A stretch of DNA of 32,307 bases from Verrucomicrobiota bacterium (GTDB lineage: Bacteria > Verrucomicrobiota > Kiritimatiellia > CAIQIC01 > JAGNIJ01): assembly GCA_018823105.1 (NCBI GenBank), contig JAHJJH010000261.1, forward strand, positions 1 to 32,307, read 5' to 3'. The notes below the pieces were generated by a model. That model ran no database searches and was not told the DNA's origin. It worked only from the letters and a program-made list of their open reading frames with translations. Position numbers and translations under genes: made by a program. Shown piece by piece: positions 689 through 28,044 of this stretch. Numbering within the stretch: position 1 is the first letter of the stretch; the number at the start of each line of letters is the position of its first letter.

Positions 689-1555
689 ATGTGGTACTGG
701 CAACGGTATAAAATCGATCGGCGACGGGCGACGGTGCAACGCCAGGTCCGCCTGCGCGAGACTCTTCTCCAGGTGGAGAAGCCGCGCCGCGCGCGGCAAC
801 GCGAGCGCCTCTACCAGGTCGGGGCCATCGTGTTGCTGTTGCTGGTCACGGCCTTGGCGCTCTGGCTGGGTACGGAGGGGGTGCGCCGGCTGGGCCATGC
901 GCTGTTCTCCGGGAACGAGCGTTTTACACTGCGGAATTTCGACCTGGCGTCCGACGGCAAGTTGCAGTCGTGGCACATCCGGGAATATGCGCGGCTGGAA
1001 CCCGGCATGAATCTTTTCGCGGTGGATCTGCGCAAGGTGTGCCGTGAGCTCGAGAGCGTGCCCATCGTAGGCATGGTCACGGTGACGCGCGTGCTGCCCG
1101 ACACGCTGCGCATCCGGATCTCCGAGCGCCTGGCCGTGGCGCGCCTCGGTGACGAGACCGGCGGCCAGCCGCTGGCGGTGGATCGGGAAGGCTATGCCTT
1201 GGGACCCAGCTCCGTTTCCACCCGTCTGCCCGTGATCACCGGCTACCGCGCGCGGGGCTTGAGACCGGGCAGCCGCATCGAGGACCCGGGCGTACAGGTG
1301 GCCCTCCGGTTGCTCGACCTCAGCGACGAACCGGTCTTCAGCCGGTTCATCCGCATCCGCCGGGTGGATGTGTCTCGCGAGGAAACGCTGGAGGTGCAGC
1401 TCGAGCGCGGGGAGCACATCCGGTTTCCCCGCAAGAACCTGCAGCCCCGGCTGGAGTGGCTGTGCGAGTTCATCAAGCAGTCGGCCGACAAGGGCCGGGC
1501 CATCGCCTCGGTGGACATGACGGTGGACCGGAACTTCCCCGTCACGTTCCAGTAG
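689..1555 (+). CDS. ftsQ: Cell division protein FtsQ/DivIB
   Basis: This is a single-pass inner-membrane protein of the divisome that links early and late division proteins. The 288 residues show the family layout: a basic cytoplasmic N-terminus, one hydrophobic segment (about residues 50-70, VGAIVLLLLVTALALWL), then a POTRA-like region starting FTLRNFDLAS and continuing through GMNLFAVDLRKV and VTVTRVLPDTLRIRISER, and a beta domain. I chose the ATG at 689 because AGAAGG lies 8 bases upstream. An in-frame ATG at 596 would add 31 residues overlapping ddl that do not look like FtsQ. The ftsA start follows 18 bases after the stop. The family is poorly conserved in sequence, so the call rests on layout plus position between ddl and ftsA. 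Confidence 0.88.
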   Translation: MWYWQRYKIDRRRATVQRQVRLRETLLQVEKPRRARQRERLYQVGAIVLLLLVTALALWLGTEGVRRLGHALFSGNERFTLRNFDLASDGKLQSWHIREYARLEPGMNLFAVDLRKVCRELESVPIVGMVTVTRVLPDTLRIRISERLAVARLGDETGGQPLAVDREGYALGPSSVSTRLPVITGYRARGLRPGSRIEDPGVQVALRLLDLSDEPVFSRFIRIRRVDVSREETLEVQLERGEHIRFPRKNLQPRLEWLCEFIKQSADKGRAIASVDMTVDRNFPVTFQ

Positions 1556-1573
1556 GAGAGGGCCGGACCGCGT

Positions 1574-2782
1574 ATGAGCAGCGAACCTCCCGTTGTAGCC
1601 GTGGAAATCGGGACCAGCCGCATCCGGGCCCTGGTCGGGGAAACCCGCGACAACGTCAACTGGATGATCACCGGCCTCGGGGAATGTCCCTCGCGCGGTG
1701 TGCGGAAAGGCGAGATCGTCAACGTCGAAAACGCCGAGACCTGCCTTCGCACCGCCCTTCAGCATGCCGAGGAAAACGGCCACCTGCACATCCACCAGGT
1801 ACACCTGCTGGTGACCGGCGGTCACATCGACAGCCTGGTCAATCGCGGCAGCGTGCCGATCATGGATACCGGCCACGAGGTCATACGCGAGGACATCGAG
1901 CATGCGATGGAACACGCCCGCACGGTTGCCCTGAACGATGATCGCCAGATCCTGCACACGATCTGCCAGCACTTTTACGTGGACGACCAGGAGGGCGTGC
2001 CGGACCCGCTGGGGTTGGAAGGCGCGAAATTGTCCGTGGACATGCTGGTGATCCACGGCCTTCTCAACCGCATTCGCAACCTCGTCCGGGTGGTGCGCAG
2101 CGCGCAGGTGGAAGTCCAGGACGTGGCTTTTTCCGGCTTGTGTTCCGCGCTGGCCGTGCTGACGCGGGAGGACAAGGAGAGCGGGGTGGCCGTCGTGGAC
2201 CTCGGGGGGGGCACCACCGATTTCGTGGTCTACGCGCGCGGCGTGATCGCGGATGCCGGCTGCTTTGCGGTGGGCGGCGATCATGTCAGCAATGATATCG
2301 CCCGCGGCCTGTTCCTGTCCGTCTCCGAGGCCGAACGGCTCAAGGAAAACGAAGGGAACGCCATGGTGGACCTCGCGGCTCGATCCCAGAAGGTGGTATT
2401 GGCGAGTGAGGCCGGGCAGCCGGCCCGGGCCGTGAAGCTTTCCGATCTGAACACGATTATCCATGCCCGGATGGACGAGATCCTGAGTCTGGTACGGAAC
2501 CGGTTGGAGCAGAAAGAGCTCCTGCACACTTTTGGCGGCGGGGTGGTTCTGACCGGCGGCGGCGCGCGTATGAAAAACATCGTGCCGCTGGCGGAAAAGA
2601 TCTTCGGACTCCCCTGCCGGATCGGAGCTCCCGTGGGTCTGGCGGGCCTGGCGGTGATTGCCGAGGGACCCCAGTACGCCGCGCCGGCGGGCATGATCAA
2701 ATACGCTTTCAAGACAAGGCCCCGGGACCAGGGGCTCGGAGGCACCTTGATATCCATGATGCGAGGATTATTGGGAAAATGA
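1574..2782 (+). CDS. ftsA: Cell division protein FtsA
   Basis: FtsA is an actin-like ATPase that tethers FtsZ filaments to the membrane. The 402-residue product has the actin-fold signatures: phosphate-1 near residues 8-23 (VAVEIGTSRIRALVGE), phosphate-2 near 208-218 (VVDLGGGTTDF) and the adenosine motif near 327-337 (LTGGGARMKNI). The last 17 residues (LGGTLISMMRGLLGK) form an amphipathic tail of the kind FtsA uses to bind the membrane. A purine-rich AGGAGAGGG lies 11 bases before the start. The stop overlaps the ftsZ start (ATGA), suggesting translational coupling. Length is typical of the family. Confidence 0.96.
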   Translation: MSSEPPVVAVEIGTSRIRALVGETRDNVNWMITGLGECPSRGVRKGEIVNVENAETCLRTALQHAEENGHLHIHQVHLLVTGGHIDSLVNRGSVPIMDTGHEVIREDIEHAMEHARTVALNDDRQILHTICQHFYVDDQEGVPDPLGLEGAKLSVDMLVIHGLLNRIRNLVRVVRSAQVEVQDVAFSGLCSALAVLTREDKESGVAVVDLGGGTTDFVVYARGVIADAGCFAVGGDHVSNDIARGLFLSVSEAERLKENEGNAMVDLAARSQKVVLASEAGQPARAVKLSDLNTIIHARMDEILSLVRNRLEQKELLHTFGGGVVLTGGGARMKNIVPLAEKIFGLPCRIGAPVGLAGLAVIAEGPQYAAPAGMIKYAFKTRPRDQGLGGTLISMMRGLLGK

Positions 2783-7803: not shown

Positions 7804-8781
7804 ATGAACTGGCTGGAATACGGGGAAAGGGTGCGGGCGGGCGGCGCCTTGACGCGCGATGAGGCCCTGGCCGTGCTGCGTTCCTCTGACGACGAACTGC
7901 TGGGCGTGCTGCAGGCGGCCTTCCTGGTCCGCCGTGCGCACTTCGGCCGCAACGTGAACCTGCATATCCTGCGCAACGCGCAGAGCGGGTCGTGCGGAGA
8001 AAACTGCGCCTTCTGCAGTCAGTCCGCCGTTTCCGCCGCCGGGATCGAACGTTATCCGCTTCAATCCGTGGAGGAGATCGTCGCGGGCGCCGTCGAGGCG
8101 CAGCGCCTGGGCGCGGTCAAGTATTGCGTCGTGACCAGCGGCCGGGCCCCGGCGGAGGAGACGCTGGAAACATTCTGCGAAGTCGCGCGCCGGGTTCGAA
8201 AGCAGACGTCGCTTCATCTTTGCGTCTCGCCCGGATTGCTCACGGAGGCGCAGGCGCAAGCCCTTGCGCGGGCCGGCGTGCATCGCGTGAACCATAACCT
8301 GGAGACCTCCCGGCGCTATTTTCCAACCATCTGCGACACCCACACCTACGACGATCGGGTCGCCACGGTTCGAGTCGTGAAAGCGGCGGGCATGGAGGTA
8401 TGCTGCGGTGGAATCCTCGGCCTTGGAGAGAGCCTGGAAGATCGTGTGGACCTGGCGTTCGCGCTGCGCGCACTGGAGGTGGATTCCATTCCCGTCAATT
8501 TTTTCAATCCCCGGCCCGGCACGCCGCTGGCGGAGCGCCCCAAGCTGGGCGCGATGGAGGGATTGCGCGGGCTGGCGCTGTTCCGGCTGGTCAACCCGGC
8601 GCGGGACCTCCGCGCCGCGGGCGGGCGCGAGGCGTGCCTGGGCGCCCTCCAACCGCTGGCCATGTTCGCCGCCAATTCCATTTTCAGCAACGGCTATCTG
8701 ACCACGCCGGGCCAGGGCCGCTCGGCGGACGCGGTGATGCTGGAGGAGGCCGGCTTCCGGCCGGCGCAGTTGGAGATGTAA
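7804..8781 (+). CDS. bioB: Biotin synthase
   Basis: BioB is a radical SAM enzyme that inserts sulfur into dethiobiotin, the last step of biotin synthesis. The 325-residue product has the [4Fe-4S] motif CGENCAFC (Cys64, Cys68, Cys71). The second-cluster ligands are recognisable in VKYCVVTSG, LHLCVSPG, GMEVCCGGILGLGE and the Arg region LRAAGGRE. NHNLETSRRYF matches the conserved substrate-side motif. GGGAGG lies 7 bases before the ATG. It is divergent from bioFHC, and a palindromic repeat follows 6 bases after the stop. The product feeds the biotinylation of AccB encoded at 16595. Confidence 0.96.
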   Translation: MNWLEYGERVRAGGALTRDEALAVLRSSDDELLGVLQAAFLVRRAHFGRNVNLHILRNAQSGSCGENCAFCSQSAVSAAGIERYPLQSVEEIVAGAVEAQRLGAVKYCVVTSGRAPAEETLETFCEVARRVRKQTSLHLCVSPGLLTEAQAQALARAGVHRVNHNLETSRRYFPTICDTHTYDDRVATVRVVKAAGMEVCCGGILGLGESLEDRVDLAFALRALEVDSIPVNFFNPRPGTPLAERPKLGAMEGLRGLALFRLVNPARDLRAAGGREACLGALQPLAMFAANSIFSNGYLTTPGQGRSADAVMLEEAGFRPAQLEM

Positions 8782-8787
8782 GCATTT

Positions 8788-8841
8788 GGTAGGGACGGCT
8801 CGCTGAGCCGTCCGCGGCGCGCTCGGCGAGCGCGCCCTACC
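8788..8841. repeat. Double-hairpin palindromic element with GTAG/CTAC ends
   Basis: The outer ends are GGTAGGG (8788-8794) and its complement CCCTACC (8835-8841). Between them stand two perfect 9-base hairpins with 3-base loops: GGACGGCTC/GAGCCGTCC (8793-8813) and GGCGCGCTC/GAGCGCGCC (8816-8836). Similar layouts occur at 21076, 22634, 27329 and 27979. It may end bioB transcription or form stabilising RNA structure, though no T-run follows. Confidence 0.85.
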
Positions 8842-8868
8842 TCGATGCAGTGGCGCAATCAATCTGCC

Positions 8869-9627
8869 ATGTCTATGGACGTACAGGAAATCACAACCCG
8901 CACGGCGCTGGTCCGCTCTCGCATCCCGGGCGTTGAATTCGTGATCAATCCCTACCTCGGGTGCGGCCACGGCTGCCGCTACTGTTACGCCGTGTTCATG
9001 ACCAAGTATTCCCGCCACCATGTCCGGTCCGCGTGGGGCCAATTCGTGGAAGTCAAAACGAACATCGCCGCCGTGCTTCGCGATGAATTGCGCCGCAAAC
9101 GGAAGACCGGCACGGCGATGCTTTCCAGCGTATGTGATCCCTACCAGCCGGCCGAGCGCCGGTACAAGCTGACGCGCCGGTGCCTCGAGGCCCTGCGCGA
9201 TTTCAACTGGGGGATCGAAATCCTGACGCGTTCCCCGCTGGTGCTCCGGGATCTGGATATCCTCAAAACCTTGCCCCGCGTATCGGTGGGCCTGACGATC
9301 CCGACCGATGACGATCGCGTGCGCCGCGTGACGGAGCCCGGGGCCCCGCCGATCGGAAGCCGGATCGTGACGTTGCGACGGCTGAAGGAGGCGGGGGTGG
9401 CGACCTGGGCGTTCATCGGCCCCATGCTGCCCATGAATCCCGAGCGGCTGGCCGAACTGGTGGCGCCCGTCGCGGACGAAGTGATGATCGATGCGCTGAA
9501 TTACCGCGGGCAGGTCGCAGGCCTGTTCCGGCAGCAGGGCTGGGCCTATGCGCTGACCAACGAATACGCGCAGCGTACGCGTCGGGTATTGATGGGACGG
9601 CTCGGCCGGAAAGCGTCCAGCGTGTAA
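8869..9627 (+). CDS. SPL-family radical SAM protein
   Basis: The product (252 residues from this start) belongs to the SplB-like radical SAM group (COG1533). It carries the cluster motif CGHGCRYC (Cys32, Cys36, Cys39) in the typical setting NPYLGCGHGCRYCYAVFM, followed by WGQFVEVK, SSVCDPYQPAERRYKLTRRCLEAL split over two segments, and ILTRSPLVLRDLDIL. True spore photolyase is longer and this organism is unlikely to sporulate, so the substrate is unknown; many such short proteins have no assigned reaction. Start choice is uncertain: ATGs at 8845, 8869 and 8875 all lack a ribosome binding site, and a repeat ends 3 bases before 8845. It converges with nadA, with a 5-base gap between stops. Confidence 0.85.
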   Translation: MSMDVQEITTRTALVRSRIPGVEFVINPYLGCGHGCRYCYAVFMTKYSRHHVRSAWGQFVEVKTNIAAVLRDELRRKRKTGTAMLSSVCDPYQPAERRYKLTRRCLEALRDFNWGIEILTRSPLVLRDLDILKTLPRVSVGLTIPTDDDRVRRVTEPGAPPIGSRIVTLRRLKEAGVATWAFIGPMLPMNPERLAELVAPVADEVMIDALNYRGQVAGLFRQQGWAYALTNEYAQRTRRVLMGRLGRKASSV

Positions 9628-22616: not shown

Positions 22617-24524
<1,908 letters not shown>

Positions 24525-27328: not shown

Positions 27329-27417
27329 TGTAGGGCCTCCGCTTGTCGGAGGCCGAAATTCGGCGCGCCGCATCCGCCTTCGTCAAACTTCGGCGAGACA
27401 AGAGCGGCGGCCCTACA
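27329..27417. repeat. 89-base double-hairpin element with TGTAGGGCC ends
   Basis: Perfect 9-base terminal inverted repeats TGTAGGGCC (27329-27337) and GGCCCTACA (27409-27417) enclose a perfect hairpin GGCCTCCG/CGGAGGCC (27334-27354) and a weaker second stem region with ATCCGCCTTCGTC (27371-27383). That word is shared with the tandem element at 22634. It lies between the pseudokinase and nitroreductase genes and could lie in the leader of the latter. Confidence 0.85.
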
Positions 27418-27978: not shown

Positions 27979-28044
27979 TGTAGTTGCGCGTGTGACACGC
28001 ACAAAGAGTCCGGCGTCCCGACGCCGCGTCGGAACGCCTCTACA
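27979..28044. repeat. Double-hairpin element between convergent genes
   Basis: TGTAG (27979-27983) and CTACA (28040-28044) flank two perfect hairpins: GCGTGT/ACACGC (with 1-base centre, 27988-28000) and GGCGTC/GACGCC (28012-28025). The TAG stop of the minus-strand flavoprotein gene (28040-28042) lies in the right end. The design matches the other GTAG/CTAC elements although the stem sequences differ. It may separate the converging transcripts. Confidence 0.75.

Follow-up and report, generated by a model that had tools for sequence, protein, structure and literature searches.

GTAG REPs are defined as a GTAG or GTGG tag placed 0-2 nt before 7-20 fully paired bases with a loop of 2-5 nt (PMC6006769). 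The repeats described by Di Nocera et al. (2013, PMC3733652) carry GTAG at one end of a short-looped stem of 6-13 bp, use alternative complementary residues in their stems, form head-to-head pairs spaced by 1-2 bp, show an excess of heterodimers with unlike arms, include members of the phylum Verrucomicrobia, and are accompanied by repeat-flanked RAYT genes; all these features are shared by the repeats reported here. The prevalence of heterodimers was reported in 2013 as common and without obvious explanation (PMC3733652). GTAG-17 of Opitutus terrae likewise forms head-to-head pairs with 1-2 bp spacers (PMC3733652), a likeness of description, not of compared consensus sequences. Three further systems offer partial parallels. 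The REPIN of Bertels and Rainey (2011, PMC3116915) is, like the unit studied here, made of two inverted REPs and a spacer, is mobile, and has a cognate RAYT; Pseudomonas REPINs, however, are described as symmetric, with arms that pair into one hairpin (PMC3116915), whereas here the arms differ and the predicted DNA fold is of two hairpins. In the REPtron Sm of Stenotrophomonas maltophilia (Corneloup et al. 2021, PMC8266576), GTAG immediately adjoins a short, perfect stem whose loop is the three bases GCT, as here; that stem has 8 bp, where ours has 9 bp and a GCY loop, and the likeness concerns the repeat sequence, not the transposase group. For that S. maltophilia REP, the first G of the loop is reported to be essential, stem swaps have a mild effect, and a mismatch nearly abolishes cleavage (PMC8266576). 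Finally, the E. coli BIME with its Y and Z REPs also pairs unlike REPs in inverse orientation (PMC8266576), but E. coli REPs have bulged stems of unequal lengths, whereas our two arms are of equal length and perfectly paired.

The window analysed, a stretch of 32,307 nucleotides, comes from a Verrucomicrobiota genome of 3.56 Mb in 356 contigs (G000), which was compared with a relative of the same genus (G001) and one of the same family (G002). The element under study occupies positions 8788-8841 and reads GGTAG-GGACGGCTC-GCT-GAGCCGTCC-GC-GGCGCGCTC-GGC-GAGCGCGCC-CTACC. Within these 54 bases, a left tag GGTAG (8788-8792, plus strand, read from the sequence) is followed by a left hairpin (8793-8813, plus strand) with stem GGACGGCTC, loop GCT and G at stem position 5; then come a 2-bp spacer GC (8814-8815), a right hairpin (8816-8836, minus strand) which on that strand reads stem GGCGCGCTC, loop GCC, with C at stem position 5, and the right tag CTACC (8837-8841), which is GGTAG on the minus strand. 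The two perfect 9-bp stems, of unlike sequence and equal in length and loop size (three bases), are thus as an earlier note on this DNA had described them; they differ at 3 of 9 positions. The same note had placed them inside GGTAGGG and CCCTACC ends. GGTAG and CTACC do flank the element, but the GG that follows GGTAG and the CC preceding CTACC are stem bases, so that there are no separate ends. With its tag adjoining a fully paired stem with a short loop, the element agrees with the GTAG REP rule.

Chance accounts poorly for such a structure. The pattern GTAGGG-N(20-50)-CCCTAC has one match in the window versus 0.01 expected from shuffles, and perfect hairpins of at least 9 bp with a loop of 3-6 number four, versus 0, 2, 0, 0 and 0 in five first-order Markov sequences. 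For the element folded as DNA, the prediction is a pair of hairpins enclosed by a short outer stem (−24.4 kcal/mol, z −4.2), and none of 200 shuffles gave an equally good energy. Compared with a REPIN, two inverted REPs form one unit here, and symmetric arms that pair with each other are not seen in the DNA fold. We conclude that the element is a head-to-head pair of GTAG-tagged REPs, BIME/REPIN-like and of a known kind, belonging to family A of this genome.

The element had been described as one of a family occurring five times in the window. Five GTAG...CTAC pairs in a wide sense do exist, at 8789-8840, at 22635-22713, in a copy of the latter extending to about 22793, at 27330-27416 and at 27980-28043. 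These are not five copies of one family, as several REP families are represented and, besides the element, only the pair at 27330-27416 has GTAGGG and CCCTAC ends. The 22635-22713 pair belongs to another family (GTAGCCGGGATC... / GTAGCCGCGACC...), holds an extra nested hairpin in the loop of its right arm, and is followed by its degenerate tandem copy. The pair at 27330-27416 is of class B, with a CGCTTG apex and a nested hairpin in its right arm, and the hairpin pair at 27980-28043 has unrelated stems. A hairpin motif of about 30 bases (TTGTC...GAAGGCGGA) was observed inside REP-arm loops of two families (22669-22698, 22747-22776 and 27373-27401 in the window, and L073:13812), as if a second small repeat had inserted there; similar motifs without a REP were seen at L065:4658 and L068:884.

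The genome search that the earlier note proposed, run as GTAGGG-N(20-50)-CCCTAC, returned 137 places in G000, versus 18 for the reversed-pattern control. Hairpins were then counted in 81 sampled stretches (759,237 bases, partly picked for known copies): of 3004 GTAG sites, 102 (34 per 1000) lead into a perfect hairpin of 8 bp or more, versus 0 to 3.6 per 1000 for control tags not overlapping GTAG. Pairs oriented by hairpin rules in this sample were head-to-head in 35 cases, tail-to-tail in 12 and in the same direction in 5. At least two GTAGGG classes coexist in the genome. Class A, which includes the window copy, has mostly perfect 9-bp stems and mostly a GCY loop, while class B has a CGCTTG apex and frequent bulges; a pattern-selected sample of 46 pairs from the genus comprised 28 of class A and 18 of class B. 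The base before GTAG was G in 56 of 56 class-A arms of this sample. Class B pairs, such as L035:4672-4729, also have unlike arms, the base before their tag is mostly other than G, and no transposase was matched to them. Other REP families of G000 surround transposase genes of their own (L024, L025, L022 and L110). Copies of the GGCGGC type numbered 63 in G000, 18 in G001 and no more than 3 in any of 54 other relatives, so that this type is nearly confined to the genus.

Stem pairing was examined on 27 distinct class-A arms, chosen by their ends and not by pairing. In these, 97.5% of cells were paired and both-side changes were present at 7 of 9 pairs; the covariation score was 0.550, versus 0.157 in shuffles, and none of 500 shuffles reached it. 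The stems of the copies thus pair and covary, in favour of the first description. In the 81 listed GGCGGC-type pairs, 150 of 162 arms were fully paired, the loop was GCC or GCT in 151 of 162, and the spacer measured 2 in 39 pairs, the commonest length and that of the window copy, and 7-8 in 31. The idea that structure rather than sequence is conserved applies mainly to the middle of the stem, as the GGTAG tag, the two basal pairs and the GCY loop are themselves conserved; the stems vary by compensatory changes.

The TnpA-REP-type transposase that was to be looked for was found: a gene for a REP-associated tyrosine transposase has copies of this repeat on both sides. With PF01797 alone, 11 places were obtained, none of them bracketed by the REP family of the window; the cognate gene surfaced only with NF047646, which has 15 matches in G000. 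It lies on contig C129 (L111:1287-1733), encodes 148 residues and scores 81.9 bits for a cut-off of 80. Family-A REPs are found on both sides of it, a pair (1157-1220) and a single REP (1242-1266) upstream, and an arm (1781-1805) downstream; the stop codon of the gene (1731-1733) is the TAG of the next REP's tag. An identical layout of repeats and transposase gene is present in G001 (L141:1453-1899; 84.2 bits, same cut-off), with a protein 74% identical to that of C129. Both histidines of PDHIH and the tyrosine of YIRENP, which we take to be the catalytic residues of the transposase family, are invariant in five proteins, and the HUH and YIRENP motifs of the family are present. Judged from these sequences, the C129 type is apparently the matching transposase (TnpA-REP/RAYT) of the family-A repeats. 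The initial interpretation of the locus is thereby supported as far as a repeat family with paired stems and a transposase is concerned, each proposed check having favoured it; the element is not a symmetric REPIN, since the arms mismatch.

Some further observations were made on RAYT genes. Those ending in a REP, with a TAG stop within GGTAG, are at L111:1731-1733, L141:1897-1899 and L110 (gene 1483-1962, minus strand). The RAYT gene at L025:957-1589 (G000:C83) carries two of its own REPs as an in-frame pair (1295-1349), which adds about 24 residues to the protein. The L024 transposase of G000 matches the solved TnpA-REP entry 4er8.

Mobility was assessed by presence and absence between the two genomes of the genus, with counts that rest on placeable elements only, unplaced ones being uninformative either way. 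Among 37 pattern-selected pairs of the G000 sample, 5 could be placed between aligned flanks in an 800-kb sample of G001, and all 5 were absent there; conversely, 1 of the 9 pairs of the G001 sample could be placed in the G000 sample, and was absent. Each of the 6 placeable elements is thus found in only one of the two genomes. At the bioB junction, the element is absent from G001, where 15 bp separate the genes, and from G002. Besides the 54-base element, this junction holds some 39 other bases in G000 versus 15 in G001; empty sites are therefore not exact to the base, and a target duplication was not delimited. This double hairpin of 54 bases belongs, as one copy, to a repeat that is abundant and apparently mobile.

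The position of the window copy could nevertheless mean that its mobility is past and that it now functions chiefly in the RNA of the bioB operon, as a terminator, an attenuator or a stabiliser of the mRNA. It lies between two co-directional genes 63 bp apart: upstream, a bioB-like gene with Radical_SAM and BATS domains (7804-8781, plus strand), whose stop codon is 6 bp upstream of the element, and downstream a gene for a radical SAM protein (8845-9627, plus strand), for which the start conserved in G001 corresponds to about 8875. Its predicted RNA fold, one long hairpin, is also very stable (−50 kcal/mol, z −4.6). However, no terminator-like site or T run after the stem was found at 8600-9100, and an Rfam search of the whole window gave no family at the element, its sole match being a tRNA gene (RF00005, 4875-4947, minus strand); an intrinsic terminator and a known RNA family were rejected on these grounds. 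Together with the junctions lacking the element in two relatives and the 137 places of its pattern in the genome, this makes an RNA role of this kind quite improbable.

The best explanation overall, and very probably the right one, is a mobile repeat of the non-autonomous kind, in which two GTAG REP hairpins stand head to head and which a TnpA-REP (RAYT) transposase like that of G000:C129 would move. Its basis is the anatomy, the copy number, the repeat-flanked transposase in two species, the presence/absence pattern and the compensatory stem changes. The transposase would recognise, on single-stranded DNA, the GGTAG tag and a hairpin whose loop starts with G. The stem would have to pair while its central sequence is free, and could thus drift by compensatory changes. 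The conserved features fit the S. maltophilia system, in which the tag, the first base of the loop and an unbroken stem count and the sequence of the stem has little weight (PMC8266576). We infer the above by analogy, transferring these requirements to the C129-type transposase.

Arms of one pair are regularly unlike. In all 35 head-to-head pairs of the 759-kb sample the two stems are unlike, with only one base pair making the difference in one case. The 28 class-A pairs of the genus sample all differ at stem position 5; random re-pairing of class-A arms gave a mean of 14.4 such differences, and never 28 in 2000 trials. In the 81 listed GGCGGC-type pairs, which were selected for one G arm, the other arm has C at position 5 in 80, and the C/C pattern, with CGCG on both sides, had no match in G000 and G001. 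Across 288 genomes drawn from the phylum, with patterns that cover only arms starting GGCGG or GGCGC and leave the left arm of the window copy (GGACG) outside, GTAGGGCG pairs were G/C at position 5 in 177 of 199 cases (19 genomes), versus 99 expected under random pairing, G/G in 18 (11 genomes) and C/C in 4 (3 genomes); arms in one genome are related by descent, and these pair counts are not independent. The 22 pairs with the same base at position 5 include 20 with a difference at position 6 or 7; the other 2, out of all 199, have identical 5′ stem strands.

Such a picture might arise if same-arm palindromes were lost in short-read assembly and only unlike pairs were left to be seen, the G000 assembly consisting of 356 contigs. 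In genome G156, however, where matches spread across at least 3.58 Mb of one contig, 18 pairs are G/C, one is G/G (and differs at position 7), and none is C/C. Because the same arm rule is seen there, we regard an assembly or sequencing artefact as extremely unlikely. G156 also has 10 places of the backwards-read control pattern; another palindromic family, with ends CATCCCGCC/GGCGGGATG, seems to exist in it.

The arms beside related transposases were then compared. A scan of named genomes gave 276 loci encoding relatives of the transposase, of which 80 were kept. Head-to-head pairs lying within 700 bp were found at 27 of these 80, and none by the same rules at the other 53. From 26 loci, 34 distinct arm pairs were obtained: the arms are unlike at position 5 or 6 in 32 and the same in the remaining 2 (L208, L237). 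Positions 7, 8 and 9 differ within pairs at rates of 0.24, 0.15 and 0.09, versus 0.67, 0.71 and 0.34 between loci; position 5 differs at 0.76 within pairs versus 0.60 between loci, and position 6 is no outlier (0.53 versus 0.58). Paired arms therefore share their base and apex, and differ mid-stem. These data bear on the possibility that the founder pair of each family had unlike arms by chance and that its copies inherited them, no selection being involved. The same two arm types are indeed common to copies within one genome. Descent alone is nevertheless unlikely, as the rule recurs across families and genera with unrelated stems (the 32 of 34 arm pairs above), as 81 of 102 GTAGGGCG pairs remain G/C at position 5, versus 50 expected, once G000 and G001 are set aside, and as position 5 differs more, and the apex far less, within pairs than between loci.

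What the unlike arms change is the predicted fold. As DNA without flanks, a double hairpin is predicted for 24 of the 28 native pairs, and hypothetical same-arm versions form one long hairpin in 56 of 56 cases. With flanking G/C, double hairpins are predicted for 19 of 28; RNA folds give them for 14 of the 28 native pairs. The argument from folding is thus weaker with flanks and fails for RNA. Exposure of GTAG was considered as the cause of unlike arms and rejected, as tags are free in 24 of 28 folds without flanks, but paired in 25 of 28 with flanking G/C. Only two local hairpins are therefore argued for. Arms kept different mid-stem would each fold as their own hairpin, with no collapse into a single long one, and that they are kept unlike for this reason is a less certain part of our explanation, to which we give nearly even credence. 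In its wider form, held tentatively and at somewhat less than even confidence, the proposal is a rule of matched ends and mismatched middle for paired REPs throughout the Verrucomicrobiota: tag, basal pairs, apex and loop would agree between the arms as one transposase reads them, and the central pairs would be actively kept different, typically G-C versus C-G, for two hairpins to form on single-stranded DNA.

The same mobile REP pair could also owe its unlike arms to palindrome avoidance only, the transposase having no need of them. Pairing in a same-arm version would give a single hairpin of some 24 bp, and a palindrome so long and nearly perfect might be deleted or cleaved in replication (SbcCD-type processing); protection of heterodimers from such enzymes is proposed in PMC3733652. 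Homodimers, which count against our explanation, were found at L208 and L237 and in G137 and G138, and the four homodimeric transposase flanks have longer spacers, of about 27, 48, 59 and 75 bases. For this reason spacer length was considered as what makes arms like or unlike, and was rejected, since unlike arms are usual at long spacers too; at spacers of 25-76 bases, which interrupt the palindrome, they are also the rule, which speaks against palindrome avoidance. We regard such avoidance as a serious possibility, although somewhat doubtful. The arm rule is explained equally by arms that fold separately on single-stranded DNA and by long palindromes being avoided, and the present data do not decide between these accounts. 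GTGG-tagged REPs beside other transposases, at L138 and L148, were observed to be homodimers or nearly so.

The mid-stem arm rule was not found stated in the REP, REPIN and RAYT literature covered, which included the portions of PMC3733652 considered here and lay mostly outside subscription journals. Over published work, the present analysis adds a cognate transposase, presence/absence evidence and a position-specific rule for the arms. For the question of how REP pairs spread, this family combines short, perfect stems with a 148-residue cognate transposase and a sharply defined rule open to direct test. If the proposed rule of matched ends and mismatched middle is true, the middle of the stem would serve as an anti-pairing code, with two separate hairpins required together for transposition.
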